A stretch of DNA of 64,000 nucleotides from Heliocybe sulcata. Taxonomy: Eukaryota > Basidiomycota > Agaricomycetes > Gloeophyllales > Gloeophyllaceae. Shown here piece after piece: positions 1 to 48,165 of this stretch. The stretch lies in NCBI GenBank assembly GCA_004369045.1, contig ML213531.1:122483-186482 (forward strand), read 5' to 3'. The position numbers were made by a program, and so were the translations under genes. How positions within the stretch are numbered: the first letter of the stretch is position 1; every line of letters begins with the position of its first letter. The notes beneath the pieces were generated by a model. It made no database searches. It was not told the DNA's origin and saw only the letters and a list, made by a program, of their open reading frames with translations.

Positions 1-188
1 TATATATTTGCTTTGGAACTCCCTTCAACAACGTGCAGCCTTGCCAGCTCACTGGTTGTTAAGGTAGCCCTTACATCGCGCATGCTGCCTGCAGTTCGCA
101 GGAGATGGGTCAGGAAAGGATGTCAGTAGGTCTGGAGATCTCTCTCTGTGTTTACTGGTGATGCGACCTCGCCCTGATCCCGTACTTT
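1..188 (+). pseudogene. Gene A copy 1, 5' part (before transposon)
   Basis: This is the upstream piece of an unrecognised gene (family A), cut by the window edge and by the transposon that starts at 189. From about position 80 it aligns base by base with the minus strand of the intact-looking paralogue near 26.95-27.07 kb. Shared words include CAGGAAAGGA and a GACCTCG-CCTGA-CCC-TACTT run that leads directly to the insertion point. The reading resumes at 8429 with CAATGGTACGC, exactly as in the uninterrupted paralogue. Positions 1-80 align less clearly. No function can be assigned. Confidence 0.75.
186..188. repeat. Left target-site duplication (TTT)
   Basis: TTT immediately precedes the CACTG terminus, and TTT also follows the other terminus at 8429-8431. 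A 3-bp duplication fits the CACTA superfamily. The paralogous uninterrupted site in gene A copy 2 has a single pyrimidine-rich triplet here, reading TACTTCCAATGG. Confidence 0.8.
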
Positions 189-229
189 CACTGTGTTCAG
201 CATACATCTGTACGCTAGTCCGAACAGAT
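189..229 (+). repeat. Left terminal inverted repeat and sub-terminal motif
   Basis: It starts with CACTGTGTTC and contains GTCCGAACAGAT at 218-229. Both are matched in inverted orientation at the right end of the element. Confidence 0.85.
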
Positions 230-819
230 CAGACGTACCCGAAAATACAAAGATAGTTCGATGTCCCCAAATAGCTGGAGTAGCCCAGGTCCGAACAGAC
301 GTGACCTAGTTGGAAATACAAGGATGTTCCGAGACTCTGGCTAGCTGAGCGGTTTGCAGCATGAATAGATCCGACGTTGTCCCGAACACGTGGAGAAATC
401 ACATGTACGACGCGCTCATCTGCGCGAACCTCGAACAGACCCGCGCCTCTCAGCTATTCGACTCCTGCCTACTCCAACCTAGCCGCTTACTGCCTTCTGG
501 ATGTATACTTAGATACAGGCTATATGCATGATTATTTTAACTTCTGTCTTTCTAAGTTCCCCTACTGCTGTCGAGCTTAAGTGAAAGGCCGACTTAAACT
601 CTCGGTCTGCCATGGATGCAACACCACATGACCCGTACGCGCAACAACCAAGTCCCGTCTACGTGAGTTATAAGTCTCTTGCTATGACCGTCACATCCCC
701 ATCTCCCACTGCCGTCGCCCTCGACATCCTGCTCTTCCCCGCTCGACTCCGGCCTCCTCACCAGACCGCCAACGTCTCAGATCTGCTTGTCTCCCACCTC
801 TTCTGCCTGTTCCTCCAGC

Positions 820-3800
820 ATGAGCTATCGATGTCTTTGCCCTAAGTGCCAGGGAGCTTTGGTCAGCCAGTACATATACGACAAACATCAAGCCGAGATC
901 CAAGTATCCGAAGCCATCCGTAACATCCCCCGCCCAATACAGGACCTCTTAGGGCGGCTGGGTGACCAGCGGCAATCTACGGTGAGACGCACAGCTGCAG
1001 GACCGTCTGCTGTTCCCCCCACCATTCGAAGCACCGCGCACCATCCGTCTCTCTCGCAGCATCCTTCTTCATCAGTATTGGCACCTCAGCCTCCTGTTTT
1101 GGCTCCAGGGCAGTCCAATACACTTATCGAGCGATACCCTCGGTCGAGCGCTGCCATCTCCGAGTCTTCCTCTCCTTCAATCACGCCACAATATTCAAGT
1201 CACCTGGATGCCACGGTGCTTGATTTGTTCACAGATTCTGTACAGGATCCCATGCCCGAGGCAGAGCCCTTACCGAATCTCGTATGTGCTTGGACATTTC
1301 ATCCGGGAATTGATGTGCTAATTCAGTATGCTCCCAGCATCATCACACGTCCGTGATAGACCCCGCACTCCTTCTTCCATCTTTGCCGGCACTGTCGGCG
1401 GTTTCCAACGACAACAAGCCACCGCCTCCCACCACTGAGGATGAAGAGTCGCTATATGCATCCTCGCCGGGGCCACGCGACTCCGACTCCGACTCTTTCA
1501 ATGCCGCCATCCCTCCATCATCACTTGCTGACGACATCTTCCCTGCGGGTGACCCCCACCACGTCGACATCAATGTCCTTGATGAACCCGCGATATTAGA
1601 GTCACGCCCACCATCCAGTGCTCCCGACAATTCACTTGCATCTCCCGCGATACGTCTTCCAGGAGCGGTCTCGCCAGCTCCACAACGTACTGGCTGTGCT
1701 CGGAAGCCTCAAGTTCGGAAGGAGGTTCAGACTCTCGTGGAGAAGCGTCAAGAGAGAGATCTTGGTCTCTATGACGATCCGGACGACGGGGATGCATTAC
1801 AGGCGACATTGGCCGGCGATGCTGACTCTGGCGGTTCCATCAGCTCCAGCGTAGCGAGTCCGCTGGGTGCTATTCCACTTGCAGAGCCTCGCCCGAGTGC
1901 CATCGACTCCTACGCCGATTCACACCAGGCCTGGTTTGTCAGGATGGTTCTCCTCCTCGTCTCGTTCCTCCATATCAAGTATCATGTGACCTTTCGAGCG
2001 TGCGCTCTCATTTTATGGACTATGAAGCAGATCTTCATCTCCCTTGGGCACCTCGCAGCGAGTGACTCCATGCCGACTACGCTCACTATGGTTATCCATA
2101 CTCTAGACTTGGCAGATCGCTTCCAGATCTACCCGGCTTGTCCGACTTGCCATGAGCTTTTCTCCCCGTCTAGTTCCGCCGACTCTCACTGTCCTGACTG
2201 TAAGATCGGTATATATAAGCCCCAGAACCGCACGATGTTCGAGAGGATCACGCGACGAGCTCCCCAACGACCTATTCCAAAGATGGCGGTGCCCGTTGCA
2301 CCTCTATCCAGCCTTCTAGTTGACTTTCTAAACCAGGGCGACAACGAAACAGTATGCGAACAATGGCTCGACTACGAACCTCAAGCACCGGGAACCTACT
2401 CTCACGTGCTGGATGGCGAGGTCCCGAGAACAGTGAAAGGCCATGATGGGCAGCCGTTTTTTTCCCGAGGGTCTCTCTCTGAGCCTGAGGAACTACGGTT
2501 GGGCATGACGTTCAGTCTCGACTGGTATGTCTGATTATTCATATATGTATTCAAAATATTAGCCGCCCTGAAATGAATCCACTAGGTTCAACACGAATAC
2601 AAGTAATTACTGCAGTAGTCACTCCTCCGGAGTGATGTCGTTCTGTGTCTCCAACCTCCCTCCGGAACTTCGGTACGTTATCGATCCTTGTTGCTGCAAA
2701 AATATCGACCACGTACTCAGCATGCCCAACTAGGTACAAGACATCAAACCTTCTGATCCCCATCATGACACCTGGACCCAACAAGCCCACTGCCGAGCAA
2801 TTGCAGAAGTACATCAAGATTCTCGTCGATGACCTCATCAAATTATACGAAGAGGGTGTTCGCATTAAGACACCTGAATATCTGAAGGGTAAGTCTTCGT
2901 AATATGGGTCACAAACATGCCTCTGATCTCGTTATTAGGACGCCTAGTGTGTGTCTTTCTACTGGCAATTATATGCGACCACCCAGCCATGTGCAAGGTT
3001 TGTGGGTTTGCCAATCATGCACATAGCGAGGCGCCATGCACAAAGTGCCACGTATCTCGGAACGACATGTTCTCCGAAAAGGCATTGCGCAACAGTAAGA
3101 GATCATGATTAAAGTACTACCCTATGTACACAAATAACCATCGTGAATATTAGAATATCCAGCAAGAGATGGCAAGCAGCATCGAGCCCAATGCTATACG
3201 TGGAAATCCCTCCAGACGCAGGCCGAGCGCAACACCTTCTTCGAGACATTTGGATCAAGGTGGACCGAATTTGCGTGGCTGAATTATTTTGATCTTGTCA
3301 GGTATACGCTCGTCGACCCGGTGCACAACGTCCTCTTAGGCCTCGCAAAAAACCAGTGGTATACTCAATGGGTACGAAGGAACGCCATCCGAGCACCAAC
3401 ACCAATGCAAGGGCGGGAGTTGGGTATTATCCACAAGTTTCTCAGTACGGTAAGTATACATTTCATCGGTGCACTATGGTTGACTGAGCTTGTAGTTTGA
3501 ATCCCCTTTGTGGGCCAGGCGCCTCCCAACGCGAGTGGGAGAACCTGCTGGAGGCGCGCTCACCGCTGATGAATATAAGCTAGCTATGACGTGCCCAATG
3601 CCTATGATTGTGAGTCCGATTCCACTTGTGTTTCGTATCCACATCCGAAAGTGCAGGTGTTGCATGCTGCGTATCCTTTGCCACATGTTAGCGCTTCTCT
3701 GGGCTGCTACCAGCTCGAACAACTGTTCAGCTTGGCTGACTGGGCTTGCAGATCCCATTTGTCTGGGACGAATTCCTCAAGGATGCTCAGCAAGAGTTCG

Positions 3801-5595
3801 CCAAGCAGTCCAAGAAATACAAGGCAGATTTGACTAAGCACAAGAAGGATCTCGAGGAGTGGAAAGAACGTCATCCGGAGGCTATCGAGGAAGCAACGTC
3901 CACCCGGAAGGTAACTTTTAAGGGCGTACCGCCCGTATCTACAGGCCATGCTCCCAAAAAGAGAAAGCTTGGGGATGACAACAACACTCGACCTGTCGCG
4001 CCAGATCCACCGGGAAATCGAATGCACAAAGACGAGCCGGAGCTACTATTTTGTCTGGCTACTAGCTTGAAGCTCCTATTGGGTCGGTCTCTTGATGATG
4101 CATCTCTCACGAGGTCTCTACAGCTCCTTCGTGAATATCTTCTGAAATATCGTGAGGTACGCCAGCACAAGTACACATCATTCAAAAACTTTCATTTCCT
4201 CTTCTTATAGGTCTATGGCGAGGGCGCCATGAAGCCAAATCATCACTGGGTGGTCCATACCCCTGACCAGGTTCGCGATTTCGGGCCTGTCTATTGTTTT
4301 TGGCTGTTTCTTGTCGAGCGCCTCAACAAAACACTCAAGGACTATAACACGAACAACCACTCTGGCGGCGAACTCGAGATTACGCTAATGCGTACGTTCT
4401 ATCGGGAAGTCCGCATCCGGGATATGGTTAGTCTTTACATCTCGGGAGCATCATGCAACATTGCTCATAATTTGTAGACCTCAGCTATCGCCGAAGGCTA
4501 TGAAGATATCCACATAGCTGAAGACCAGCTTGCGATTTGGGCCCTTTCAAATGCCGGAGAGGAGCGCGGCACAGTCGAGGTGGCCGGAAGTCGAACAGAA
4601 GCTTCCGTCCTGAGTGAAGGTGCGTCATAATAGCAGTGGGAGTGGATTACATGTGAATGAAGATGATCTTATAGCGAGGACCCCAATTCGTCTACAAGCA
4701 GGGCCAGCAGTCTCGGTTCATGCCCAAAGACTACCTGACAACGTTGTCATGGCACTCTGTATGCATTACAATGCTCATTCGACGAGACCCATCTACCACA
4801 CTTTGCTTGAGCGGAATCCTCTTCCAGGAAGAAGATTGATAGCCTCAAATGCCATCCTGTTCGAGTACGCAATCCTTGACGGTCGGCGCATCGTGCCAAC
4901 ATCTTGATCTCAGCGCAAGGGGGCTGGTTCATCCATTGTGAAGGTCCTCGTGGATGGCCAGAGCTATGGCGGTGAGGTTCAGCGAATCTTTCAGCATACT
5001 CAATCTCTAGACAACGCGATATGGGCCGAGATGCGCTGGATGAAGTGCTGCAAGGTCCCATCAAAACGGAATTACTGGTGCAAGTAGTAAGTCCGATTCC
5101 TCTCAAGCGTATGATCAAACTTACCCGTGTGGTATCCTCAGCCCCGAGCTCAGCATAGAGTATTGGGAGCTCGGGAAATATCACGACACGGGCGATCGCC
5201 AAGTGCCACCCATCATCGTCCCATTTTCGTCTATTCAGTGCCAGCTCTCTAGAGGTGAATACCGAGACATGAAGCCTCGCGTATGGATTACGACGACAAT
5301 GGAAAGAGTGAGTCCTCTTCCCTCATCCATTAGCATATACTCATCCTCGTTACAACCCACGACAGCATGCGATTATAGACATGTCGTTAGACAGTGCTTG
5401 ATAGGGTTTCGTTGCGTACCGTACAGCCCATTCGCCGGTGTTATCATCGCCTGTCATTGCGTTCAAATGCTCTCTATTGCTTCTTACTGAAAATTACATT
5501 TGCTATTGGACAGGTGTCCCCCAATCACGATTACAGACCTCTACAAGTCAATCGAGACCACACCGCTGAGTACGAAGCAAGTATCGGCAGTGTGA
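820..5595 (+). CDS. Tnp2-type CACTA transposase, multi-exon, with one in-frame stop
   Basis: This is the transposase of the surrounding element, expected to cut and join its CACTG ends in the nucleus. The ATG at 820 opens a C-x2-C finger (CLCPKCQGAL). An intron at about 1282-1337 restores frame into a long low-complexity exon to ~2524. That exon ends in a second zinc-binding segment (YPACPTCHELF...C-x2-C) and the GHDGQPFF region usual for the family. Later exons give NLLIPIMTPGPNKPTAEQ, a C-x2-C...C-x2-C finger (MCKVCGFANHAH, CTKCHV), the hallmark DPVHNVLLGLAKNQW, PNHHWVVHTPDQVRDFGPVY and FLVERLNKTLK. The reading is coherent over about ten exons, but a TGA at 4905-4907 (after DGRRIVPTS) interrupts an otherwise continuous exon. 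The downstream frame stays open (KGAGSSIVKV). The gene therefore may be dead, or act only in trans as a shortened form. The C-terminal exons after 4900 are the least certain. Confidence 0.85.
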
Positions 5596-5798
5596 TTTGA
5601 CTGGATGAAGGATAGCGATTGGACAAGCACGGGAGCACCAGTATCAAGAAGAACAGAAGAACAAGTAAAGAGTCGAGCATTACTGAATGGTATTAGCAGG
5701 AGGAAGTCCCGTTCCGAGTCACATCAAGAGGGCATAGATACCGAAGACAGGAAGGACGTTGAGCTAATGTTGCCAGAGCCCAAGAGGAAGCAGCCAAT

Positions 5799-8021
5799 CT
5801 AGCCAGAAGTCTCATCCTCGGGCTGAGGTGTGTTCTTTCCAAACCCTTCTGGATCACCTCTTGTATACCATTGCTGCATAAGAAATTCCCAGCTGTCTTG
5901 GAATTCTTCGTAGTACCCGCGCTGTATGGTGAAGTCCCAAGGAACATGGATAGGTGGCCTCTCATTCCACCGGGTGCTGGCGTGAAAGCGCTTAGGACCA
6001 AACCGGGACAGATCCCTCTCCAAGAGGGAATTCAGGTAAAGGCCCATGATGTCTTCCAGAAGCCACTCGAACTCAACGCCCCAGGTCAGTGAATTCATTC
6101 TATCTGGAATCAACCACAGCTTACCTCACGTGAGCGCCATGAAGGTCTGATACGTTCCCAGACCTCGAATGCCTTCCACTCAAGTGGGTCCATCGCATCC
6201 GGGTTGTAGCCAAGATTGATGCCATGCACCGCTTCCAGTCTGCTTTGCTTTCCTTGTCTTCATCTTCGGGTCCTGATGCGTAGTCTGATACAATGTCGAT
6301 ATTTTCCAGGAGCGGCATCGGATCTACGCCATGCAGCTTCGCGTAAAGCTTAGCTCCTAGCCGGAGATGCTTCAGTTTCTGGGAAACAGTGTCAGCAACC
6401 ATCTCGCAGAAGAGAGATTAAGCAAACCGTTGTCCGGCGATTATGGCGGCGTGTATTGCTCTCATTTTCGAGCTGTTTTGCCATTTTAACTTCGTCTCGT
6501 TCCCTTGCAGCCTGGGCCTTGAAGCCGCGGAAGGTTTCCTTTGCCATCCATTCAATCGTCTTCCGATTGAAGTGTACAGATGAGTGTCGAAGGTCATTGG
6601 GCAGCTGCTCTGCGGCCTGTATCAATGTAAGTACACTTGCAGCGAGGAATACCGGTTAATATCACTTACCTCAAGTTCAGCCATAACAGAATCTGCTACT
6701 CGTCAGCATATGGTAGCATTTATTGGGTGATTTACCCACTGGTCGAAGTCGGGTGTGAAATATGGTTGGTTCGTCTTCTCATTAATCCGCAGTTCGCCTA
6801 CTTCAGGCCACTTCTCCTTTACGCCAACACCACAGAGCATACGGAAGGCACTGATTTCGAGGTGCTGACGGCAAGTCAGGCAGGTCTATGTAATTTTGAA
6901 GAATGATATTACTGACATTCAACAGCGCTTTTGCGCTTCTGAGCGGCGGGGAAAGATGTTCCGGAGCTTTCAAGAGCTCGTCCCAATGCTGGTCATCAAG
7001 TTCGTCCTTGCTTCCTTCATTGTCAGCCTCCTCGTCATCGGCACCACTTGTGTTCTTGTCCTTGCGGGCCTCGAGTCTCTTCTCGTGTTCGCGAATCTGG
7101 CAACGTGCGCGTCTGGTGTTATCGGCATGGCTCTGACTTGCTGTACTTGCAGCGATGGTTTGATTACTGGCGACTTGCTTCCGAAGAGTCTGAATTTCCT
7201 TCTCCATCTTGTTCTGGCGCTTCAAGACCTCCCGGAGCATCTGGTTCGGGTCAGCGTCATCGGTGTTGGAGTTACCGGTGTCTGGACCACTAAAAAATCG
7301 ATGTAAGCTGGCTCACGATCTGTAGATATATGCTATGCTTGACTTATGCTTTCGTCTGCTGGAGGAGCTCAGAGACCGGTATCGGAGACTCAGAATGTCT
7401 CGATCTATTGGAAAACACCAAGATCAGTGGTAATGTGTATGTATATGCTACTGTTCACTGACAACAGGGGCTGTTTCTGCTTTGCCTTCCGAGTCGAGCA
7501 CCTGTTTGGCTGACGACCGTTTCTAGGAGCCTCGATCCTTGCTGCGCCGACTGTCTTCCCATATGCATCTGGCTGCATATTCTGTGATCCATCAACAGAT
7601 GTCGCAGTGATGTCGGCAACCTTCTGCTTTGTGTTATGTGCGCTCTGAACCTTCTTAGGTCTGTATCCATAGTCGTGGTCGGAGTCAGTAGTATCTTGCA
7701 TTCGCCGCTTCCTTTTCGGTTGTTTTGGCTGCTCAGTGCTGGATATATGCGCGTAAATTGGTGAGTTGGCACAGTGATCAGCATGATTAATTGGACTGAC
7801 TTGTCTATAACCTCGGGTATGAGATCAGAAGATGCCGAATATGGGTCACCTTGAGGGCCATCCATATATGCATTGTGGATTCTAGTACCCGGTCCAGGTA
7901 GGTCGTTTAATGGGATAGCTGGAGGTTCAGAAAGGGCTAACTGGGCTGATGTATCCAACAGCGCCCATTTATCCACTGGGATATAGTGCGGACGACTAGG
8001 GACTGTCCCTCTAGATGCCAT
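5799..8021 (-). CDS. Second gene of the CACTA element, uncharacterised accessory protein
   Basis: Multi-exon gene convergent with the transposase; the stops lie about 200 bp apart. It starts at MASRGTVPSRPHYIP (ATG at 8021), followed by a basic region (QPKQPKRKRR) and a nuclear-localisation-like stretch (STRKAKQKQ). A coiled coil follows (LREVLKRQNKMEKEIQTLRK) and then an acidic segment (GADDEEADNEGSKDE). The C-terminal half is tryptophan- and aromatic-rich and ends in a Pro/Glu tail near 5800. No catalytic motif is visible. Its position between the TIRs suggests a role like the DNA-binding accessory protein (TnpA) of plant En/Spm, but that is analogy of position, not sequence. Internal exon edges are approximate. 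Confidence 0.7.
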
Positions 8022-8388
8022 CCGGTATACAGCCGGTAGACAGTACCTGGTATGAGGGGTAATGAGCGAGCGCAAGAGGATGAGCGCAATCAGGGAGCGC
8101 CACAGCACGTGGATCACGTGCTCGTGTATTTCCGTATTAACCCAAATAGAGCGGTTATTGCTATATTGTAAATGAATATTATATTGGATATATCAAATAT
8201 TGGGCGGCCCATTATATACCACTAGGCTGAGGTATTCAGAGGCTATATAGTCGAGCCAGTCACATCTGTTCAGAGGACGGAACATTTGGTATATGCTGAG
8301 GGTCCGTACAGATCTGTATTTATATAAATACCAAGGAATTCGAGGGTTTGCAGGGACCACCTATCCAAGGTCTTCGCGAGACGTCCAC

Positions 8389-8428
8389 ATCTGTTCGGAC
8401 ATCGACTACTTGTGCCTAGAACGCAGTG
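8389..8428 (-). repeat. Right terminal inverted repeat and sub-terminal motif
   Basis: Read on the minus strand it begins CACTGCGTTC and contains GTCCGAACAGAT (8389-8400 reversed). It mirrors the left end and is followed by TTT at 8429-8431. Confidence 0.85.
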
Positions 8429-9096
8429 TTTCAATGGTACGCATACCACAAAAGGCACCAGGGTACTCGTCTGGGGGTGCGGTTACATCCTCTGCATGGA
8501 CAGGCAATATACTTATCCTTCTCGCAGATGTGGTTTCTGCGGTGAGCTCCTGTCAAAGTTGCAAGACGCACTACGGAAATTGCACCAGATAGTGCTGGAA
8601 AAGGCGCTGGTGGCTGCGGAATACAAGGACTTTGACGACCTGCTCCGGCATATCTCGGACTTCCCTCCTTTTAATGTCACGGAAAGGTGCTCAGCCCGCG
8701 TGACAGAGTTTCTGGCCGACGTCTACTGGATGACGGTACGACAGCCGATCCCTTCTTGTGAGCACACCTGTGTTCGATGAGCACGTCCCTGTGCTCCGTG
8801 ACTCGGACTACGACTTCCATATGCTTGCTCTGTGCAGTCTGCCATCCGAGAAGACTCAGTAGGAGTTCCTCAGACGATATACGGATGTTTTTGGCTTAAG
8901 GGGACCGGTCATGCTCATATCCGTTCGGGGTAGTCCATCTGATTGCCTGCTGTTGAATATTGAAGGGCCGCATGCCGTTCTTAGAGTGGTGAGACGGCAT
9001 GTCCCGTGCGATGTCACGGCAAGCATCCCAGAAACGTATGTTACCGTGCTTATTTCCTGCAAGACATATAAGAGCGCCAAGGCGCAAGTATTGTAG
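8429..9096 (+). pseudogene. Gene A copy 1, 3' part (after transposon)
   Basis: Continues gene A after the insertion. The first bases (CAATGGTACGCATACC) match the exon at about 26.95 kb in copy 2. After the same small intron comes CGFCGELLSKLQDALRKLH, paralogous to CGFCGEILSKLQEAVHNFQ. The copy then lacks about 120 codons present in copy 2. It resumes at DEHVPVLRDSDYDFHMLALC and has a TAG just before EFLRRYTDVFG. It ends ETYVTVLISCKTYKSAKAQVL then stop at 9096, matching DNVVLIPCKKYKSANARLL of copy 2. The deletion and stop make this a pseudogene even without the transposon. Function unknown. Confidence 0.8.
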
Positions 9097-9370
9097 TAGG
9101 CATGTGTTAATGTGCGCGCTTTAGAGTCCTGTTGCAGCCACTGTCATCAGGTTTCCTTTCAATTGAGATTCAGGATTAATTATAAAGGTGTAGCCAGACC
9201 GTTCAAGCCGCACTACCAGATAAAGATGTGGCACGGCGCGTTCGCTACGATCACGTGCCCCGCGTGCGACATGATAAGATATCGCCATCGACGTCAACGT
9301 ATGCTGCTGCCTCTACACTGTCGCAGTAGGATCCGCTTGTTTCCTTGGATCCTCTTAAACCATTATTATC

Positions 9371-10100
9371 ATGCTTTGGCTCAGAATAGCATCTGTAGGA
9401 AGGAGAGGCATCGGCGAAGTGAAATGGACCAGTACTCAGCGACTGAGTCGCTTGCAGCCCATGCTCTTGAGACAGGTCGGAACGCAAAATGATAAGGTAC
9501 ATATTCTTTCGCATAAGGCTGTTAATATTGTTATGTATACGGGTCGTCCTCAGGATCACGAGTTGCATCAAGATCAGGAATCTTCGGAGAGTGTCTCGTC
9601 CTCCCAGGGCATGGCTCTGCAGACTCCGTCGCCGGCCGTTGCCACCGCGCTCATGTCAGACGAATCTGCCGAAACGCGGACTCAAAAGAAGAGAAAACAA
9701 ACGTCGGCTATAGTTCCATATATCTGTATTTCGTGGACCCTGATTTGATATATGTAGTGCACGCAAGGCCAACAAAGATGACAAGGCCAAGAACAAGAAC
9801 GTCAAGCTTTCCAGGAGAGAACAGCATCTGCAAGCCGTGCAGAATAATGCGAAGCAATACGAGGAAATGACTGCGCTGGAGGACATTATTGCAGAATTGG
9901 AGATAGACCCGGACAACCGTCATCTCATGAGGGATTTCAGAAGGGCTATGCATCTCCGAGACTGGGACAAAGGGTTTACCGAGACGGAGTTGGAGCACTT
10001 GGCGAGCGAAAACGTGGACCCATGCGATTCCCATGCTGTGGTGAGCACTGAGGACATCGGGCCCGGGTTTCTATTGGTTACAAGCGGTACTGACTCGTGA
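9371..10100 (+). CDS. Gene B copy 1, uncharacterised paralogue family
   Basis: A two-exon gene downstream of gene A in the same orientation. It opens MLWLRIASVGRRGIGEVKW; copy 2 opens MLWSRIAFVEWRAMGEAKR. A 55-nt intron (9703-9757) starts GTCGGC and ends ATGTAG. The matching intron in copy 2 is 53 nt, so the length difference leaves both frames open. Exon 2 has a lysine-rich linker (RKANKDDKAKNKN) and then an acidic, probably helical segment (RRAMHLRDWDKGFTETELE) that aligns with FEEAMSFRAWNNGFSESEVE of copy 2. It ends FLLVTSGTDS. I recognise no domain. Conservation of frame across a diverged intron suggests the protein was under selection. The first ~110 residues also show open alternative frames, so the start is uncertain. 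Confidence 0.55.
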
Positions 10101-18898: not shown

Positions 18899-19125
18899 TC
18901 TACATATAGATCTATAACTGAGTTTGAAATATAATTCAGACTTCGAAACAACTCCCACACTTCAGGTGCAATGTCATTTTGCGATAATATTCATATTCTG
19001 ATAGTAGATCCTGCTGGCCAGAGAGTAAAATATGCCTTGAGATGTATAAACCCAACAGTATGAGTTTGTACAATTTTACTGCAAGTGCATCTCAGCGTAA
19101 ACACAAAGACGTCACAGGTTCCAGA
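18899..19125 (+). repeat. Direct repeat, right copy (~227 bp)
   Basis: Second copy of the 17891-18107 repeat. It starts with the same CTACATATAGATCTATAACT and ends near GGTTCCAG. Divergence by eye is roughly 15 percent, so it is not recent. Confidence 0.65.
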
Positions 19126-24603: not shown

Positions 24604-25448
24604 TTATATTAACCGTTGCCGTAGTAGTGCAATTCTCACATCTGCATCAGCGTCGCATGACATTAGCCAGTACCTTGTCCTCATCTTCGAGCGTATTCGC
24701 GGTGGAGCGCTCTCAGTACGTCCTGCTTGCGAGTCAGTACCGCCGGCAAGTCGAAATCCGAGTTTACTCGCAGTGCTCACCTCAGCATCGTCGTCCCACG
24801 GGTTCACAAACTGGGCGGACAGCTCCTCCACCTCCGACTCGCTGAAGCCATTGTTCCAGGCTCGGAAACTCATAGCTTCCTCAAAAGCCTCCTGGTCATC
24901 AGCTTTCCCTTGTTCCACCAAATCTATAAACACTCTCTCCTCCAATGTGAGTTTCTTGTATTTCCTTTGGTTCTGCTTTTGGTTCGTGTTCCTTCCCTGT
25001 TCTTTCTTTGACTTCGCGCCCTTACTCTTGGCCTTGCTTGCACTAAACACCAAGTCAGAATCCCCCAAATACAGACGAATGGAACTGTCGCTGACAAATG
25101 TTTTCTCTTCTCTTGACTATCCCAGACGCGAGCATGCGCGCCATCCTCCCCATCGGTACAGCCGTCAGGCTTCGGAGGTGCAGACAGTGTGTTAGATTTG
25201 TGCACATCCGTATCTTGGGAGGGCGAGACTCTCTGTGAAAAGTCCTCCTTGCGATGCAGCTCATTTCCCGCAGGACGAGCCGCATACTGGGTAATATCAA
25301 GACCCTCAGCCGGGAAATCATGTACCCTTTCATTCTGTGCTCCCACCTGTCTCAAGAACCATGGCTGTGGACGAGCTAGTCGCAGAGTTGACCTTTTCGC
25401 TTCGCCCATGGCTCTCCATTCTACGAATGCTATTCTGGACCAAAGCAT
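24604..25448 (-). CDS. Gene B copy 2, uncharacterised paralogue family
   Basis: Lies just downstream of gene A copy 2, in the same order and orientation as copy 1 at 9371-10100. The ATG at 25448 opens MLWSRIAFVEWRAMGEAKR. The N-terminal half is rich in Arg, Pro and Ser (LARPQPWFLRQVGAQNERV, QDTDVHKSNTLSAPP). A 53-nt intron at 25043-25095 (GTCAGC...GTTTAG) joins KRKHF to ASKAKSKGAKSKKEQGRN. Next comes an acidic segment (LEERVFIDLVEQGKADDQEA) and the conserved block FEEAMSFRAWNNGFSESEVE. The C-terminus runs about 30 residues past the copy-1 stop and ends RIALLRQRLI. No known domain. Basic-then-acidic organisation is the only structural hint. Confidence 0.55.
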
Positions 25449-25823
25449 GGTAACAGCGCTTCAGTCTTCAGAAGGACCCAAAGGAATGCAAGTGAGTTCT
25501 ACTGCGACAGTAGTGTACAAGGGTGAAGGCCACAGCGACCGATAATGATGCAGTTGCAAGTTCAAGTTGGGGCTTGTTACGCGACCCATGTGCCACATCA
25601 CGCCGACCTCGAGGCTCACTATTGAAACCATTCAATTCAAAGAGGAGGGGATATTAATACATACCAGTACTCTACTCAACATCCTTCAACATCTCTATGT
25701 CGCAGCACGGCTGAGACGGTGTACTACATCTTGTGTAAGATACGTTGCGCATCACTTCATTCACAAGAGAAGAGGCTAGTGTCAGCAACAACAAGACTCT
25801 GTCGGATTGCACTGACACTCCTG

Positions 25824-28724
25824 CTACAATAAACGCGCATTGGCACTCTTGTACTTCTTGCAGGGTATGAGTACAACATTATCCGGTCTTGGACTGTTTG
25901 CCGCGACACCGCACGGAATATGCTTTCTCCTCGCATGAACAGCCACAGGCTGCTCGTCGATATACTAAGCAACAGCAGAAATTAGGTCACTCACTCCAGA
26001 CAGATGTGAGCACGACCGAACAACTCACATCAAGAATGTCCAGATATCGCCTGTGGTACTTGTACATGGTCTTCTCCGCTTGCATGCTACACAGACCCAG
26101 CAGGTGAAAGTCGAAGTTCAGGTCCTGTAGGAGAGCGACGTTCTCATCGAGAGCAATTTTGTCTACGGTAAAGTATCGGCCGTCGGCCGTAGACAGTATG
26201 CATTGTTTGCGCTCCAGGTCTGCAAAAATCGGGGAGAGAGCAGGGTTCAGAGGCTCGTAGTCCGAGAGCGGCAGCCAGAATATCGGCGATTCGGCATCTC
26301 TCCATACCGGTACATTCGACGTTGATTGATAGCAGTAATATGATTTCACAATACATACCACCGCCTTCGATAAAACACGTCTGATCCTATCCGCGTTGTC
26401 CCCATCATTGGAGTGGATTAAGAGATGGTCGCAGGGTATTTCGCATAGCTCGATCAGGATCTCCCCGAAGTGGGCTTCTTCCGATCTCTGAAGCCCTTCG
26501 TCGTTGTCGCCCCGTGCGAAGGTGAGTCCCGCTTCTCCAGCTCGAAAATAGCGCACATGCAGTGTGTAGTGCACTCTGCTCGGACTAACCGGTGGCGTCA
26601 GTGTGCCCACGTTGTCCAAGAATTCTGCCACCCGAGCCGACTGCATTTCGGTGATATGGGGAGGAGGGAATTCTGAGATATCTCGGAGTAGATGGTCAAA
26701 AGCCTGATATTCCGCGGCCATCAGCACCCTTTTGAGCATTATTTGCTGGAAGTTGTGTACTGCCTCTTGCAATTTAGACAGAATTTCACCGCAGAAACCG
26801 CACCTGCGACAGGGATAAGTATGCGGCCTGTCTATGCGGAGCATCTGAGCGAACTCACCTGGGCAGGATCTCACGCACCTCGGTGCAAAGACCCCGTATG
26901 CATCCTCTCCTTAGCATTAATTCTACCTCCCGATGTTTTCCCCAGTGTTTTCGACGGTATATCGCGTACCATTGGAAGTAAGGGCTCAGGACGAGGTCAC
27001 ACGACCATTGAACAAGGAGGAAGATTTCTGGATTCACTGCCGTCCTTTCCTGCCCGGTCTCTTCTGAGCTTCGGGCAACATGTACAAGGCCATCGGCGAA
27101 GCATCTCATAGCAGCAAGTTCCTGCATGACAGCCGGGCCAGTGCAGAGGCAGAATGTGGTGGATGAGACTAAATAGGACAAGTATTTCCTCACAACAGAG
27201 ACATCGTCCACTGTCACATGGCTGACGAACGCAAGTTGTCAATGCAATGTACCCGCTGAAGTCAAAGATATACACACTTGTCGCCGGGACGCAGGAATGT
27301 ACGGAGTGCCGGGAGTATCAATACCTGCCAGCTTACGTCAGGTTCCTCGGATATGCAGTGATGCAGGTTACGATACAGCTGGCGTAGCATGTCCGAGATA
27401 GGCCGGTCGCCGTGTGCGACCATGTCCCACCATTTCTGGATGAAAGGCGCTAAGATGCGTCACCACCCTCCTCCTACCCACGCACGCTCGGTTATGACAT
27501 TATGCGGCAGTCTCGTAATGGCGAGCATCACGTGCATTGCTGCGAGACTCCCGACGTTCATGTCTCTTCAGAGCAATTATGAGTCAGCACAGGACGGAGC
27601 GAATGGAATGATACGTACATCGTCAATGGGAATAACTGAGTGTATACACTTATGAACCCTCCAGTAAGCTTACTCAAGCATTCGGGGCAGGTTGTGGTCT
27701 CGAATCCTGTCAAAAGCTGCGCCCGAGTTTCATGGATCTGTGCAGCTCTGCAGACGACTTTATCTTCATTCACGAATTGTAGCATACGATGAACTCGACC
27801 CAGGAGGAAGTCTGAGTTGCGGTATCGAGCGAATCGTCGGTGAAGATCGTCCAGGGTCAAAGAAAGGCCTAACTCCGCAAAGGTGACATGGAAGTTGGGA
27901 TGAAGGCTCATGAATGTCGCAATGTATGTCAGAGCCTGTTGAACAGATGTGATATTATTGCGTCTGTGAGCAACGTAAGCTAGAGGTATAACGGTCTCCA
28001 AATTGCGGCCTTACTTGAGAGACTTTACCAGTTGGCGGCAAAGGCGTCCGTCCTTGGATAATCCTTCAACATAGGCAGGGAAACACGATGCGCATACCGC
28101 ACTGTATATCCAGCGTAACATGTCTGTAGAGAAAAGACCCTCGCTGGGACTACCACCAAGGACTGGATGAAGGTCGAGCCCTCCATACCCGCAACAGATG
28201 CAATAAAGCCCCTCGCCCATGTTTCCGAATCTCCTTCTCATGACCCCCGAGGGTCCCAGGCCGAGACAGTTACCGGCAAGGCTGAACATATGACTGATCT
28301 GTCTGGAAAGAATGGACACCAGTTGGTCGAGAGTCCGGCCGATGCCGGGAATATTGGAAGCGGTCGATACGCTGCAAGGACGGATCTCGAAGCACTGACC
28401 TCCACATCGGATTCCAGTGGGCTGTGAGAAGCGCTGGGCGTACTGGGCATTGTCGAACATCAAAGTCAGACGATGCCGCCGGTGTTCTGGAGGCCCGAAG
28501 TTCATCGAGCTCTCTAGACGGTGTCCGAGGTAAGATACGGCACTGCCTATGGTCCTGCCAAGTCCTGGTGGGTCATGAGAAGCGACCGACTCGCTGGCAG
28601 TGGATATCGACACATATTCGTCGCCGAGAAGGGCTGCGCCAACTGGAAGGTCCGAAAGTGAGATGTCATCGGCAGGATCAGAGTGCACGGTCACTTCGTA
28701 GGGCTCTTGTCTAGTGGAAGCCAT
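25824..28724 (-). CDS. Gene A copy 2, fullest copy of an unrecognised family
   Basis: The ATG at 28724 opens MASTRQEPYEVTVHSDPADD. Exon 1 continues through a C-rich patch (GLYCICCGYGGLDLHP) to about 28015. An intron (27964-28014) joins RNNITSVQQALTYIATFMSL. Further exons give TCPECLSKLTGG, then the exon YLSYLVSSTTFCLCTGPAVM, which is the one hit by the transposon in copy 1. Next come REILPR then CGFCGEILSKLQEAVHNFQ, a long middle exon, HRRYLDILD, and a last exon ending DNVVLIPCKKYKSANARLL with stop at 25824. Many Cys are present but no standard finger spacing. Conserved splice sites and frame against copies 1 and 3 support a real gene, estimated at 800-900 residues. Function unknown. Exons between 27.6 and 27.2 kb are approximate. 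Confidence 0.6.
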
Positions 28725-28918
28725 GGAAAAGACGAGCTGCGGAGGCGGGGACGGCTACAGACCTCGTAAAGGAGATTCACTTATATGATGGTGAACCCTA
28801 CATAGCAATTATCACGATGCCTCCAAGGCTGTAAACTCGGGCCCGAGATTCGGCATTCAGAGGGGAGGCGATGTAAAACCATACTATCACAGTGTTAGCT
28901 AATGCGAGTTCGTCAAGT

Positions 28919-29173
28919 TCATGACTTACTCGACTTGGGAGTCCTGGGGCGTGGCTCTATTCTCGGCACGATTTCTCGATGCGCCTGTGCTGGTAGCATG
29001 GTCCAGTTGCCATTCGCGTTTACTCTGCGCACCCACAAATTAGAGTTTACACGGGTCAAGCTCCTCGGTGTCGGGGAACACTTCAACCTATCGACACAGA
29101 TATCACCTTCACAGCTAGATATTGCTCCTTGCAGGAACTGTAGTGAGCTGTGAAAGGAACTTCTTAGGAGCAC
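28919..29173 (-). other. Possible exon upstream of gene A copy 2
   Basis: An open frame (LLRSSFHSSLQFLQGAISSC) runs into a good GTAAGT donor at about 28929. It may be a 5' exon of gene A, part of gene Y, or unrelated. The assembly gap just upstream prevents a decision. Confidence 0.3.
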
Positions 29174-29356
29174 AGTGTCCGTTCCTGCGACGTACTCGAG
29201 AGGGGGAATATGCCTGTGGGTTAGATGCCGATGTCCTGCCTTAATAGCTGAATATTGATTAATGCTCGTACCTCTGATAACTAGACTTGGAGAAGCGGGC
29301 CACTGCGTTGCATGGCATTTTACGAGTCCTGAGGCCCAAGTAATATTTTAATTATA

Positions 29357-29526
29357 NNNNNNNNNNNNNNNNNNNNNNNNNNNNNNNNNNNNNNNNNNNN
29401 NNNNNNNNNNNNNNNNNNNNNNNNNNNNNNNNNNNNNNNNNNNNNNNNNNNNNNNNNNNNNNNNNNNNNNNNNNNNNNNNNNNNNNNNNNNNNNNNNNNN
29501 NNNNNNNNNNNNNNNNNNNNNNNNNN
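29357..29526. other. Assembly gap (170 N)
   Basis: Unknown bases. They fall between gene Y and gene A of module copy 2, so the true structure there is unresolved. Confidence 1.
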
Positions 29527-29843
29527 GAGCCAATCGAAATCCCGACGACGCGACTAGGACCCAAACAAATCACTTCATGTAGTGGGTTCCCACGGTAAGA
29601 ACGATCTCCGGCAAAGACGACCGCGTAGAAAATCACAATTTATACGGTAATTCACAGAAATATTGATAAACACACATGAAAGTAATAAGACCTTATATTA
29701 GAAAGTACAAGTGGATCTGCGCAGAACTGCGTGACGAGGGACAAACGGAAGCGGAACGGACACTACAAAACGCGGTTTGTAGGCATTTTGTAGTCACGAA
29801 TACAAGCGGACTGTGAAGCGGAACTTAAATCCTGTAATGAGCA

Positions 29844-30149
29844 CTACGCAAAATAACTCTCACGACTTCTCGGCATTGGCTTCCCACGCTGCTGCTGTTC
29901 GGCAACCCGCCCTACTTTTGAGCGTAAGGACTCCTCCTTCGTTACCTCAGGACTCGTAATATGCTCCGCAAGATGATCCTGAATATCCTTGCCCGCTGGG
30001 AAGCTGAAGACTACGGAATTATGGATTGTAAATGTATAAAATGGAATACGGTTTCCCTTGATTCCCCCCCCCAGGTCTGGCTCGACGCTGCGTCCTTCCA
30101 TCAGCCTGTATAGCATTCGCTCTGCTTCGTGCACTACAATTTGTGGCAT
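29844..30149 (-). CDS. Gene Y, uncharacterised, first gene of the module
   Basis: From the ATG at 30149 it reads MPQIVVHEAERMLYRLMEGR, then PDLGGGIKGNRIPFYTFTIH, SVVFSFPAGKDIQDHLAEHI, and a basic tail ending in the stop at 29844. The frame stays open upstream to about 30272 without an ATG, so more 5' exon may exist. A 9-G run lies inside the DLGGGI segment. A broken homologue is at 47.4-47.69 kb. It lies on the same strand as and upstream of genes A and B, and may be part of gene A, with the gap hiding the join. No domain recognised. Confidence 0.4.
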   Translation of the reverse strand: MPQIVVHEAERMLYRLMEGRSVEPDLGGGIKGNRIPFYTFTIHNSVVFSFPAGKDIQDHLAEHITSPEVTKEESLRSKVGRVAEQQQRGKPMPRSRESYFA

Positions 30150-30652
30150 GTTGTGTAGTCCTCTTCTGTGGGGAGCCCGGTCTGCGTGGATTTCACTGAG
30201 TTGCCAGCGAAGAGGAGCAAGTCCAAAGTCTACAAGTCCAAGTCGAACAGAAATAAAGTCGAACGCTATCAATAGCTCACTTGTTCTGTACGCGAGTTCG
30301 ACGCGTTTTGCCCAACGCTTCCGTCTGCGCTTTGAGTTTCCCTCACTTCTCCCTACGTATACAGAGCTCTGGTGCTGCAGAGAAGGAATCGAACATCATA
30401 AATCAATGTCGGAAGCGGTGTTTGTGCCATGTCTTGCAGCTTTCATTAGATGAACCCATCCTTGGACGTGACCAAAATCAAGCAAGTACTCAATAGGCTT
30501 GTTCTCACCTAGCTATGTACTCACCGCACCCGTCAGGCCTCTGTTATAGAACATCACTAATGCTCTGATATTTCTGGATCTACTGTCCTCTAGAAACGCG
30601 ACGACCTATAAGATGTCCAGAAGCACATACTCCGGCGGCTACCTTTCCTCCA
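29960..30652. repeat. Segmental duplication D1, copy at 30 kb (inverted relative to 47 kb)
   Basis: Reverse-complement homologue of 47005-47690, covering the first ~13 codons and promoter of the phosphatase gene plus the start of gene Y. Long shared stretches include GGGCAAAACGCGTCGAACTC and AGCTCTGTATACGTAG. Homology stops abruptly at about 30652, where transporter 3'-flank sequence starts. Confidence 0.8.
30613..30652 (+). pseudogene. Copied 5' end of the NIF/FCP1-like phosphatase gene
   Basis: Encodes MSRSTYSGGYLSS, against MSRNSYSGGYFSS at the true gene (start 47044). It is preceded by the same 5' flank (CGCGACGACCTATAAG) and then breaks off into unrelated sequence. An open frame continues to 31110 only by chance, through the antisense of the transporter tail. 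Confidence 0.75.
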
Positions 30653-30654
30653 TC

Positions 30655-31165
30655 GCGAGATTATGTACCACTCGACTCTGCCGCTCGGGGAGCAGGATCA
30701 GCTTCTGTCTCGGTACGGGTATATGGCTTGTCGACGGTTCTATAACTCCTGGCAGCTATATCCTGAAAACTGATGGACATGACAATCTTATATCCCTCTT
30801 ATCACTCGACACGGTTGACAGTCATCAAGCTACCCGCCGAACACCTTCACTGTCCCAGGTATCCAGACGTACACGAGCGAAGCCCAGCCTCAAACTGAGA
30901 CCGGCGTTCAGGTCATCAATACAAAATACAGAATACACCATCGTGTATGCAGATCTCATCAGACAATATGCTCCACATCCTGCTTCTCGCCCCCACTCTC
31001 GTCCAGGACAGGGGCCGTTTTGGTCCCCACGTGCACTTCCCCGCGCCGCAGCTCTTCCTCCCTCGCACGCGCGTCCCGGACGTACATCCCTGATCCTGGC
31101 ACGAATATAGGCACGCTATTGAAGTATTCGTCGAGCTCTGTGGGATTTCAGTATTGGTATTCCGC
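30655..31165. repeat. Segmental duplication D2, copy at 31 kb (source side)
   Basis: The last intron, last exon and 3' flank of the sugar transporter. Homologous in inverted orientation to 50290-50790. Confidence 0.75.
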
Positions 31166-33170
31166 TAGTAATAGGTAATGCACGGCACCTTCTAATGGGA
31201 TACCCTTCGTCTCGGGTAAGAACGACTGAAAGCAACATTCCTTCAACGCGCAAAGTTTCATGATACATCAAACACCTACCCAGAAGAACAACGCGTTGGA
31301 CATCGAGCACACAGCAAACACGAGATAGTACCTCCACCCAACACGGTCAAACGCGATCGGGCTGACTTGCGCAATCATGACTACCACACAATCAAGGCCA
31401 GTCCAATGCGACAAGGGCGGTACGCACAGTTCGAGATCCACGCAGCGGAGGAAGTGATAGAGGTAGCTTTGGCTCGGGTGGCGCTGTTGAACATCTCCAC
31501 AGGGATGGCCCACGAAAGCGGGCCGATGGCAGCTGAGAAGAACAGGTTGAACTAGTCCATGGTGTATAAGATCTTCTTCTTCTTCAGAATATCAACCAGT
31601 GGAGACTTACCAGCCACGTCATAGCGACAAACGCCCTGCTCGCGTTGGCATTGCCAGACCCCGCGGGGAAGAGCGCGATGATGATCGTCCCGATGATAAA
31701 CGTGACTCCAGACAGGATGTTCGCCCATACCAATGGTTTCCGTCTCCCGAGTCGATCAATAAACAACACGCAGAGCGCTTCGCCAATGAGCGCCACCACT
31801 GAGTTTCCGGATTGGAGCCCTAGCGTCGTGGAGGTGTCGATCCCGATGGACGCGTAGATCTGCGGGGAGTAGTACTGGATGCACGACACCCCGGTCATTT
31901 GGACACTTAATAGTGATACGAGATCAGGATGGCTCTGCGAGTCCTCTCGGGTCCGTCGTACCTGAATTGCAAGGCTACGCCGAGGAGCAAACGGCGGAGG
32001 TTGCTTGGGTTGAGGAAGAGCTGCGACCACGCGTTTTGAGTGAGTTGCTTCTCGAGCGAGACTTGGTCGATGATTTCGCGATACTCGGCGATGACGAAGG
32101 GGTCGGTGGGGTCGCCGTGGGCGTGGAGACGGGCGAGGACTTGCAGAACTTCGGTGTTGCGTCCTTTCATTGCGAGCCAGCGGGGCGATTCTGGTAGGAG
32201 GCTACCTGGATATTAGTGGCTTGCGCTTTCTCGTTGACTTAGGAGCACTTACAGGATGAACAGCGCCAAGGGCAGGGCAGCTGAAAGCGTGTGGTGTCAA
32301 GCTTTAATTCTACAGAGGGCACCCATATGGGACTCACGAAGTAGTTGGATGCCTGAAGACATCAGAGTCAGTCACACAACCGGACAGCGCATCGTCCCTC
32401 ACTCACCGAGAGGAACTCTCCACTGCACAGGTCCCGTCGTACCATGATACAACCCATACCCAATAAACGAAGCCACAAAGGACCCAATCTGCAACCCCCA
32501 TCCACTCGTCCATCAGATCTATAGATAACTTCAGGGCACACGACATACACACCCCCAACATAAACTGCTGCAGCGTCGTCAAGCTCCCCCTTATCGAAGG
32601 GTGCGCAATCTCCGACTGATACAGCGGCGCGAGCATCGCGAGCATCCCGATGCCCATCCCGGCAAGGAAGCGGCCGCCGTACATGTAGCTGATGCTCTGT
32701 GCGCCGCATTGCAGGCCCCCGCCGAGGAAGAAGAGGATGCAGCCGCATAGGATGGCTTTGCGCCGGCCGAAGGTGTCGGCGAGGGTGCCGACCCAGATGT
32801 TGCTGGAGTGGAAGGGATTTATGAGACAAAGAGCGTTCTGAGGATGAGAGTACGCACGATGCGAAGGCTCCGAGGAGAAGGCAGCCGGTGATGAGGCCTT
32901 GCTGCGTCGCGTCGGGATTTCCGGTCACTCTGATGAAGTCTTCCGCAGGCTGACAATAGTGTAAGTCGTTACTCTTAACATCGATATCCAAATCCTACTC
33001 ACGAGCACAGACGCGATGATCCCCAAGTCATACCCGAACGTCACCGACCCAAGCGCTGCGAACAACCCGCATAGCCAGGTGTAGAACTTGACGCTGTTAT
33101 GAAGTCCTCATTCGCTTTACGTGATAGAAAGACTCACCTTGGGAGATAGGTTGGACTGCGACAGGCCCAT
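30959..33170 (-). CDS. MFS sugar (hexose/pentose-type) transporter
   Basis: Plasma-membrane sugar:proton symporter family (12 TM segments expected). The ATG at 33170 opens MGLSQSNLSPK, spliced to KFYTWLCGLFAALGSVTFGY. Then come PAEDFIRVTGNPDATQQGLI, the N-domain signature GTLADTFGRRKAILCG, YMYGGRFLAGMGIGM and the central ESPRW motif. The C-domain has QMTGVSCIQYYSPQIY, LFIDRLGRRKPL and PETKGIPLEELDEYF. The last junction (PLE|ELDEY) uses a 52-nt intron. The tail FVPGSGMYVRDARAREEELR continues to a stop at 30959. About ten exons. It is divergent from the GH51 gene with 379 bp between start codons. A TATATAA on the minus strand at about 33222-33228 lies ~50 bp upstream. Substrate is not readable from sequence; the neighbour suggests arabinose or related sugars. 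The last exon and 3' flank are copied at 50 kb. Confidence 0.9.
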
Positions 33171-44509: not shown

Positions 44510-44528
44510 CACCCCTTACGCTTGACAC

Positions 44529-45428: not shown

Positions 45429-47044
45429 TCAACCCTCGATGCCATCCTCCACCGGTATACCCAGCCTCTCCAACGCTTCCCTCCCTTTCCCTGCCCAGTA
45501 CCGCACCGTCTCCTCATCCTCGAACCACATCTTCGTCTCCGTTACGTCCGCGCTCTCCGGGACCTCGACGGGTGGTGAGACAGTCGATACGGCGTCATTG
45601 CCCGCTTTCACTTGCTCTGTCTCCCCAACCTCGGCTTGATCCACTGGAGAGGCGGATGCCCCTCTGACCTTCTGCCGCTTGTCCAGGTGCGCGTCCTGGC
45701 CATCCACAGACTCCGAACTCTCCGAGGTCAAGGCTGCAGGAACTTCTCGATCCTGCGCCTGGTACGTCTTAATTTCATCGCGCTTGGGCCCCCACAGCCC
45801 GCCTCCTCTAATCCACCCCGCAACATTGCTCTGTACCCTGGTCTCGTCCAAGATCCCGATGATAGCCAGGAGCGTCTGATCGTACACCTTCCCCTCCGCT
45901 CGCTCCAGCAGCGCCTGGACCTGTTTTCTCTTCTTCCTCCGCTTCCGCTTGTGCGTCCGTTCGTCAAGGTCTTCACTCGGATCTGGAGAAAGCGCGCCGC
46001 TGGTATCAGGCGAAAGCGTACCGCTGGTGTCAGGGTCAGCATCGAGTTCTTCTTGTCGTTGCTTGGCGCGCTGGGCTTCCAAGATGTCCAGGTCTGATCG
46101 ACGGAGTGGGGAGTCGTATTCTTTGATGCAGACGTGGTTGTATGGCTGGAGGTGCGCTTTCAGGGGCGAGTCGTCGAGGAGGACGGTGGTCAGCGCGGAG
46201 TGTGCTTCGGCGCGCGGCGTAGAGGTTGAAGGGCATGAAGGTACCGGTTCCGGGGAGCTGGAGGGCGAGGAGGAGGAGGAGGAGGAGGAGAGGGACGAAA
46301 AGTAGGCCCAGGGTTTGGTTAGGTCTTTTGTTGTTTGCGTTTTCTGGCCTGCGTATCTTATGAGGTTCGATCAAGTTGGGACTTGGGTGTGGACATACGG
46401 TACTGGTGCTCTGAAAGCCCAAGCGTGTCCCTCGCCCACACGGCTTTCAGCTCCCCCTTCTTCTCACCAAACGCTTTCCCCACCATATCATCCACGCTGT
46501 GCGGCTGTGCGCTGCTCCACACCATCACATCCAGCCACTTCTTCGTGTCGGGATGGAATACGTAGTTCCTGAAGGAAAGCATGTACGGGCGGGGGTGGGC
46601 AGAGCGGATGCGGGGGCCGGTGCCGCGAGGGCCTTGGTGCGGGGAACGGATGAGCAGGGTGCCGTTTAGATCTAAGATGAGGAGCTTTCGGGGTGAAGAG
46701 GATTGGGGAAGCGGCTCGGAGGGGACGAGGGAAGTGCGTAGGTAGGTGGGGGAGGGCGACCGGCGGGGTGGTGGTGGTGGACTTGGTGACTTTGCGAGTG
46801 GCGAGGATGCGGGTGGAGGTGTGGGAGAAGCGCGGTCGCGCTGGGACGAGGAAGGGTCGTGCACGACGTACTGGTTATAGTCCGGCGATGGTCTGCGCTC
46901 TCTGCCTCTTTGCCAGGTTGGTTGGCGGTACATGTCATCGTATGGATATTGCTGCTCATAGTAGTGGCTAGAGTCGTTGTAAGGACGGGAGTGGTATTGT
47001 CGCCGGGAGGAAAAGTAGCCGCCGGAGTATGAGTTTCTGGACAT
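45429..47044 (-). CDS. NIF/FCP1-like HAD phosphatase-domain protein, probably catalytically altered
   Basis: Two exons. The ATG at 47044 opens a disordered N-region (MSRNSYSGGYFSSRRQYHSR, Pro/Ser runs). The HAD domain starts at KLLILDLNGTLLIRSP, then HPRPYMLSFRNYVF, WLDVMVWSSAQPHSVDDMV and LGLSEHQY. The intron joins QY to RQKTQTTKDLTKPWAY. A Ser run follows, then TTVLLDDSPLKAHLQPYNH (the DDS motif), a basic stretch HKRKRRKKRKQVQALLERA and the C-terminal end at 45429. The nucleophile Asp of DxDxT is present, but the second Asp is Asn-Gly (DLNGT). Such NIF proteins may bind rather than cleave phospho-substrates. Its first codons and promoter were copied to 30 kb. The promoter region at 47 kb now leads on the other side into a broken gene Y. 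Confidence 0.85.
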
Positions 47045-47690
47045 CTTATAGGTCGTCGCGCTTCTAGGGGGCAGTAAATGAATCGGTAGATGCAGCAATA
47101 TCAGAGCATTGGTGATGTTCTCTAACAGAGGCCTGACGGGTGGGGTGAGTACATAGGGTGAGAACAAGCCTATCGAGTACTTGCTTGATTTTGGTCGCGT
47201 TCAAGCGTGCGTTCATCTAATGAAAGCTGCAAGAAATGGCACAAACACCGCTTCTAACATCGATTCCTTCTCTGCAGCACCTGAGCTCTGTATACGTAGA
47301 GAGTAGTGAGGCAAACCTCAAAGCGCAGGCGGAAGCGTTGGGCAAAACGCGTCGAACTCGCGTACTCGCGTACTCGCAGAACAAACTTAAGTGAGCTCAA
47401 GAGCTATTTATAGCATTCGCCTTATTTCTGTCCGATTCTAACTTGTAGACTTGTAGACTTTGGATTTGCTGCTCTTCGCTGGCGGACGGCTCGACTCGTT
47501 CAGGTCTGCGCAGGGTGGGCTCCCCAATGATAGAAGACATTCCACAGATTGTATTACACGAATGTTGATGCATGATGGAAGGACGCAGCGGCCGAGCAAG
47601 ACCTGGGTCGAACTGAGCTGAATCCTGTAGTCTTCAACTTCCCACCGGGGTCAGGATAGTTGGGATCATTTTGCGGAAGATATATCTAGT
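47005..47690. repeat. Segmental duplication D1, copy at 47 kb
   Basis: Covers the phosphatase 5' end, its upstream region and the start of a broken gene Y (plus strand). Inverted homologue of 29960-30652. Relative to that copy it has tandem micro-duplications (CGTACTCG twice near 47360, ACTTGTAG twice near 47445). Confidence 0.8.
47400..47690 (+). pseudogene. Gene Y copy, broken
   Basis: Matches gene Y at 30 kb (ACTTGTAGACTTTGGA, GATGGAAGGACGCAGCG, TAGTCTTCAACTTCCCA), but the start ATG is ATT, a stop follows within ten codons and the PDLGGG segment is deleted. Confidence 0.65.
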
Positions 47691-47832
47691 TATTGGAGGT
47701 ACGAGCCATTCAGTTATAAGGGCAGGACATCGGTGTTGGCATAATAGTGCTGCTCGGTTTGGGCAACGGATTTATTTCTGAACTTCTAGATGCCTCGGTC
47801 GGCTTTCCATCGAGGCATATCATCCTCTTACC

Positions 47833-48165
47833 ACGTACAAGTTCCGTAGGCGATATCTGGATATCCCTGATGTAAGTCGATCGGTCGTGCTCTCGTCTGT
47901 CTAGAGTGACCTAATTTCTGCTGTTGCTTAGTATATCGACGAGCGGCCTGTGGCTGTGCATGCGACGACAAAGCATACCCCGTGCCATGTCGCGGAAAAC
48001 AGTCCAAGACCGGATAATGCCGTGCTCATACCCTGCAAGAAGTACAAGAGTGCCAATGCGCGTTTATTGTAGCAGGAGTGTGTCAGTCTGTGATCCGATA
48101 GTCCTGTTGTTGTTCACACTAGCCTCTTCTCTTGCGCATAGTAATGTGATGCGCAGCGTATACAG
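47833..48165 (+). pseudogene. Gene A copy 3, last two exons plus 3' flank only
   Basis: Begins at YKFRRRYLDIPD, homologous to YKYHRRYLDILD. The same intron follows (ends GCTGTTGCTTAG), then YIDERPVAVHATTKHTPC and DNAVLIPCKKYKSANARLL, with stop at 48072. Flank homology to copy 2 continues about 90 bp past the stop (CACTAGCCTCTTCTCTTG). No gene B follows. It lies 3' of broken gene Y, so the order Y-A is kept with the middle deleted. Confidence 0.8.

Follow-up and report, generated by a model that had tools for sequence, protein, structure and literature searches.

The proteins closest to those analysed here appear from their sequences to be those of Schizopora paradoxa, among which SCHPADRAFT_1001338 carries the UniRef label ARM repeat-containing; the Schizopora proteins are otherwise uncharacterised. 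Schizopora and Coniferiporia are members of the Hymenochaetales, and Heliocybe belongs to the Gloeophyllales. Among mobile elements, the fungal EnSpm families are described in PMC12730594 as having CAC..GTG ends and 3-bp duplications. The present analysis concerns a stretch of 64,000 nucleotides of the Heliocybe sulcata genome (contig C29:122483-186482), hereafter the window, in which an earlier note had described a Y-A-B gene module in three copies. Unlabelled coordinates are window positions, and values in kb are positions on contig C29. The repeat is real, but ordinary: it represents a diverging host gene family, that of gene A, with local duplication and decay. We assign a probability of roughly two in three to the joint account, in which A belongs to a fast-evolving host family, made up of ordinary nuclear genes in mushroom-forming fungi and shaped by segmental duplication and decay, Y is a copied flank, B is a small neighbouring gene, and the A protein is a solenoid adaptor or receptor.

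Self-comparison of the window reveals repeats well beyond the chance level, and confirms the three repeated regions (Table 1). Copy 2 comprises a complete A gene together with B and is flanked by matching sequence at either side, copy 1 contains the second half of A and B, and copy 3 consists of flank and the end of A. Five matching blocks (81-193, 8487-8722, 8774-9100, 9317-9606, and 9682-9772) connect copies 1 and 2 at 68-77%. Copies 2 and 3 match over the flank including Y (47006-47607 against 30070-30651, 76%, E 4e-138) and over the A end (47830-48161 against 25740-26070, 85%, E 6e-105). The last A intron is alignable between copies 2 and 3, in line with the conserved splice sites proposed earlier. 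The relative orientation is kept as well, but the order is not in every place: a further flank block of copy 2 finds its counterpart downstream of copy 3, and the duplication was therefore rearranged. Since the A stop codon ahead of B is kept in all three copies, the idea of a fused single gene is unsupported. No part of A earlier than about codon 479 was found for copy 1, including in the 1.4 kb examined upstream of the window.

The family extends well beyond the window. As queries against the genome (31.6 Mb in 51 contigs, with TTAGGG repeats at some contig ends), A itself, a pair of diverged paralogs, and the N-terminal portion of the contig C12 paralog located the family at 14 places with E 1e-3 or better. 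Seven of them are on C29 (86, 101-104 on the minus strand, 104.6, 122-131, 148-151, 170, and 199-202 kb), two are on C30, some 23-30 kb away from an end that bears a telomere, and C12, C10, C37, C46, and C24 harbor one each; weaker places, one on C10 at 499 kb (E 1.2e-3) and two on C41 (E 0.06 and 0.07), were left out. The A piece at 86 kb has lost B, with the homology jumping from window position 25433 directly to 24561, and the copy at 104.6 kb contains in-frame stops. Among the copies compared, the shared stretches end at different points from copy to copy. All gene models come from our own simple splice finder, which can splice around real stops, so the paralog models are approximate; the C46 model is doubtful and that of the plus-strand C30 member is incomplete at one end. 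The two C30 members are found in opposite orientation within C30:20500-30400, and one of them adjoins what we take, by eye, to be a manganese superoxide-dismutase-like reading.

Members of the family share an N-terminal PGPGR...LE motif, which is usually doubled. A region search with the C12 paralog returned 11 proteins from other species at E 10 or better, of which Schizopora paradoxa contributed eight, metagenomes two, and Coniferiporia weirii one. Eight of these rows (seven Schizopora, one metagenome) reach E 1.9e-4 or better, whereas the C. weirii row (E 0.09) and the last two rows (E 3.2 and 4.3) are weaker. The same search missed A's own deposited protein, so the absence of a species from the match lists means little. 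A profile built from the 11 proteins matches window A with E 8.2e-10 and eight of nine Heliocybe models with 7.8e-8 or better (C10, 0.07), the best of 189 decoys being at 1.9; the C12 score is not independent here, as the 11 proteins were found with that paralog. Conversely, the Heliocybe profile matches all 11 proteins with 1.5e-8 or better, against 1.6 for the best of 231 decoys. The E-values of both profile tests are set for 1000 sequences, and the matches fall mostly within the first 290 residues. Through its PGPGR motif and the subsequent helices, window A joins the Schizopora-type family, with relatives in S. paradoxa and, more weakly, in C. weirii. In a tree of 20 rows, a branch with 97/97 support parts the Heliocybe rows from the others and recurs in 96% of 200 bootstrap trees; A and the C12 paralog are sisters (100/100), while C46 and five other rows form long branches of unsure position.

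Other searches were less productive. Neither the whole A protein nor a seven-row alignment, used as query, returned anything beyond A's own deposited protein, and the Schizopora protein P0009 hit the genome only at the C12 paralog, with two marginal matches (E 0.05 and 0.07). Literature searches, locus-tag prefixes included, returned no description of the A family, which seems to be undescribed as far as these searches reach. A is multicopy and strongly diverged in Heliocybe and has relatives in Schizopora, and the earlier suggestion of a fast-evolving host gene family is supported.

The deposited H. sulcata protein OE88DRAFT_1648692 (P0001) matches A at 100% over the aligned part, in the exons that the two share. 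P0001 starts further upstream than our model and lacks the stretch between NVITE and LSSTTF. Because the C12 paralog supports this stretch, the public annotation is probably wrong there. A carries both the paired cysteines (CGFCGE) and the YKSA C-terminus pointed out in the earlier note. The closest full paralog, that of C12, has LPRCN--TRIL in place of CGFCGE, which is not conserved there. A is under purifying selection in most comparisons with other copies: in six of nine, synonymous change significantly exceeds nonsynonymous change (bootstrap share of pS<=pN, 0 to 0.003), whereas the remaining three miss 0.05 (0.07, 0.12, and 0.15). Synonymous sites are saturated between A and C12. Significance is also reached in all three comparisons of other paralogs with one another, where synonymous sites are saturated or nearly so. 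Part of the purifying signal of A may be old.

The fold of the A protein was approached through domain, profile, and model comparisons. Pfam gave nothing above cut-off for A, B, or a reading of Y, nor for seven members of the family alignment and 10 of the 11 other-species proteins, and no Arm/HEAT match in A, the seven aligned members, or those 10 proteins. A sequence search of solved structures with two profiles gave a best E of 0.41 for one and no match for the other, and nothing in the window reached the Rfam gathering level. Foldseek with a model of Schizopora P0009 matched designed armadillo proteins (E 2.0e-4, probability 1.00). The modelled relative points to a solenoid of armadillo/HEAT type and to a beta region at the C-terminus. 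The latter (HYPILAG...FYVLVLRYDP) is alike between species by eye only, as a profile of six of the eight full-length other-species proteins (without P0009 and P0011) gave a best Heliocybe E of 1.1, with two shuffles scoring better. Our best guess is that A functions as a solenoid adaptor or receptor. In such a protein, the middle of A would form an armadillo/HEAT-like helical solenoid, placed after the GPGR motifs with their helices and before the beta region. A would act inside the cell, with the solenoid holding a partner, the variable C-terminal part giving specificity, and the N-terminal helices docking or assembling. In the favoured account, the copies spread through segmental duplication and decay through deletion and transposon insertion, and copy 2 picked up the 5' flanking sequence of copy 3's host gene, the stretch called Y.

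A more specific role is conceivable, in which the family consists of receptors for self/non-self or biotic recognition that diversify lineage by lineage and bear a DM9-like C-terminal sensor. The separate radiations with long branches and the position of two members no more than about 30 kb from a contig end with a telomere are in favor of it, as is an HHalign comparison of the Heliocybe C-termini with DM9 (probability 22.3%, against 0.4% for the reversed control). However, 22% is weak and the C-termini of the other species reach 0.3%, none of the eight genome matches of Pfam DM9 (PF11901) falls at a family locus, and selection is purifying wherever measurable. DM9 structures were absent from the structure matches listed, which is uninformative. 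We regard this role as unlikely. The same holds, at slightly longer odds, for the broader proposal of an undescribed recognition-receptor family, combining GPGR signalling or assembly helices, an armadillo-like solenoid, and a variable DM9-like sensor, that diversifies lineage-wise in repeat-rich clusters of mushroom-forming fungi. Without a Pfam match, and with deposited members labelled hypothetical protein or the like, the family has nonetheless radiated separately in Heliocybe and in Schizopora. Fungal recognition genes may plausibly be sought among unnamed families of this lineage-wise expanding kind, and the defined motif and gene models make the idea testable.

Equally unlikely as the receptor role is that A and B are decaying, functionless pseudogenes and that copy 2 is open by chance. 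Truncation, interruption, or stops do affect copies 1 and 3 as well as the copies at 86 and 104.6 kb, and both selection comparisons of B are non-significant (0.42 and 0.13). Against this, copy 2 is open across seven exons, several paralog models are open for 700-850 aa within the limits of the splice finder, and A shows the purifying selection described above, even if some of it may be ancient.

The gaps between copies 2 and 1 in the first exon of B measure 3 and 21 plus 3 bases, all multiples of three, and B is therefore probably, though not certainly, a small coding gene. It was found beside two copies only, which, together with the nature of Y, undoes the three-gene module.

Y, previously called as a protein gene, is not a gene but the stretch between a host gene and A that was duplicated with A. 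The gaps between copies 2 and 3 include lengths of 1, 3, 7, 8, 9, 12, and 14 bases, so no reading frame is kept. At one end, the plus strand at 30613-30651 reads M S R S T Y S G G Y L S S, antisense to Y, and the host gene beside copy 3, which starts at 47044 on the minus strand, begins with M S R N S Y S G G Y F S S. The similarity covers the 5' region and the first 13 codons of this gene, then stops. Its first ORF matches the NIF phosphatase family (PF03031) with E 6.8e-4 and 19.8 bits, below the cut-off of 21.8. Because no copy other than copy 3 has this host gene intact at its side, the copy 3 site is probably the older one. At the other end, a dispersed repeat begins where Y ends, at 29959, and the 3' part of the original Y call falls inside it; copy 3 aligns on either side of the repeat without containing it. 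A genome search with the 1661-base query 29540-31200 gave 31 rows, consisting of the query (1), the flanks near copy 3 (2), and the repeat part (28), the best of these at 96-100% identity and a few being pieces of one place. Very similar pieces of the repeat are present on several other contigs, which suggests that it spread recently. No clear target duplication was found for it. Y illustrates how a duplicated host-gene start and a mobile repeat can together mimic a gene.

Copy 1 was earlier viewed as a 10-kb copy of A and B, most of which turns out to be an inserted transposon with its own genes. The insert starts with CACTGTGTTC and closes with the complement of CACTGCGTTC, its ends reading CACTG[T/C]GTTC. 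TTT is duplicated at both sides, and removal of the insert yields a sequence that matches copy 2 at the junction. It looks complete, with a gene on the plus strand encoding Transposase_21 (PF02992, Pfam E 1.5e-13) and a long second gene model (4747-8265) on the minus strand. The second Plavaka lineage may be an alternative class for this insert.

That Y-A-B is the cargo or coding part of an undescribed mobile element moving as a unit is highly improbable. In its favor, the copies are dispersed among repeats, and the flank common to copies 2 and 3 reaches past the gene. Against it, the mobile DNA found is nested in or beside the copies, no common boundary with a target duplication was seen among the copies compared, the flank that copies 2 and 3 have in common takes in the beginning of a host gene that is itself intact, identity is only 68-85%, and the proteins scanned contain no transposase except that of the copy 1 insert.

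Table 1 Features of the window, with strand and basis of assignment.
Feature	Position	Strand	Basis
Copy 1, A piece (codons about 479-516), up to transposon	75..188	+	Match to copy 2
EnSpm/CACTA-type transposon in copy 1, 8.24 kb	189..8428		Transposase_21, ends, empty site
Copy 1, remaining A past transposon, conserved stop	8429..9100	+	Self-comparison, alignment
Copy 1, B	9371..10097	+	Alignment to copy 2
Gene B, copy 2 (exons 25096-25448, 24781-25042; third exon 24681-24722 by eye)	24681..25448	-	Splice model
Gene B, alternative without second intron	end at 24604	-	Splice model
Gene A, copy 2 (seven exons, 859 aa)	25824..28724	-	Splice model, start set by hand at 28724
Exons of A, copy 2	28015-28724, 27619-27963, 27478-27565, 27278-27435, 26859-27221, 26029-26803, 25824-25964	-	Splice model
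Dispersed repeat between Y and A (inverted ends, TTACGAGTCCTGAGG; 170-base N stretch)	29286..29959		Right-hand limit approximate
Y, duplicated non-coding flank	29960..30651		Frame-breaking gaps, host-gene start
Additional copy 2 flank (counterpart at 50308-50764, near copy 3)	30659..31169		72%, E 2e-85
First exon of intact host gene beside copy 3	46399..47044	-	PF03031 below cut-off
Copy 3, flank (Y equivalent and adjoining stretch)	47006..47733	+	Alignment
Copy 3, A end (last intron and last exon, 47932-48069)	47830..48161	+	Alignment

Elsewhere in the window, a direct repeat of about 179 bases (17893-18071 and 18900-19077, 85% identical) has its units about 1 kb apart. Between the copies lie ORFs with an Msb1/Mug8 domain (38253-39996, plus strand) and a major-facilitator transporter (42744-44528, minus strand).

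The copy 1 insert resembles EnSpm/CACTA transposons in its CAC..GTG ends, 3-bp duplication, and Transposase_21, features in keeping with those given in PMC12730594, and this likeness belongs to the insert alone, not to the A family. Some Heliocybe C-termini share with DM9 proteins (PF11901) the pattern W-V...PIV-G...LY and a weak profile match, but differ from them in lacking a Pfam match at family loci, and the C-termini of the other species are unmatched. The helices in the P0009 model find matches among armadillo and adaptin solenoids, while the family departs from Armadillo/HEAT proteins in the absence of Pfam repeats, the low TM-scores, and the extra N-terminal motif and C-terminal region. 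The Schizopora proteins (for example SCHPADRAFT_1001338 and SCHPADRAFT_940000) have an overall identity of 16-21% to A, are not significantly alike in the C-terminal part, and group apart from Heliocybe, but they share with A the N-terminal PGPGR motif, mostly doubled, the helices that follow it, a similar length, and a helical region.
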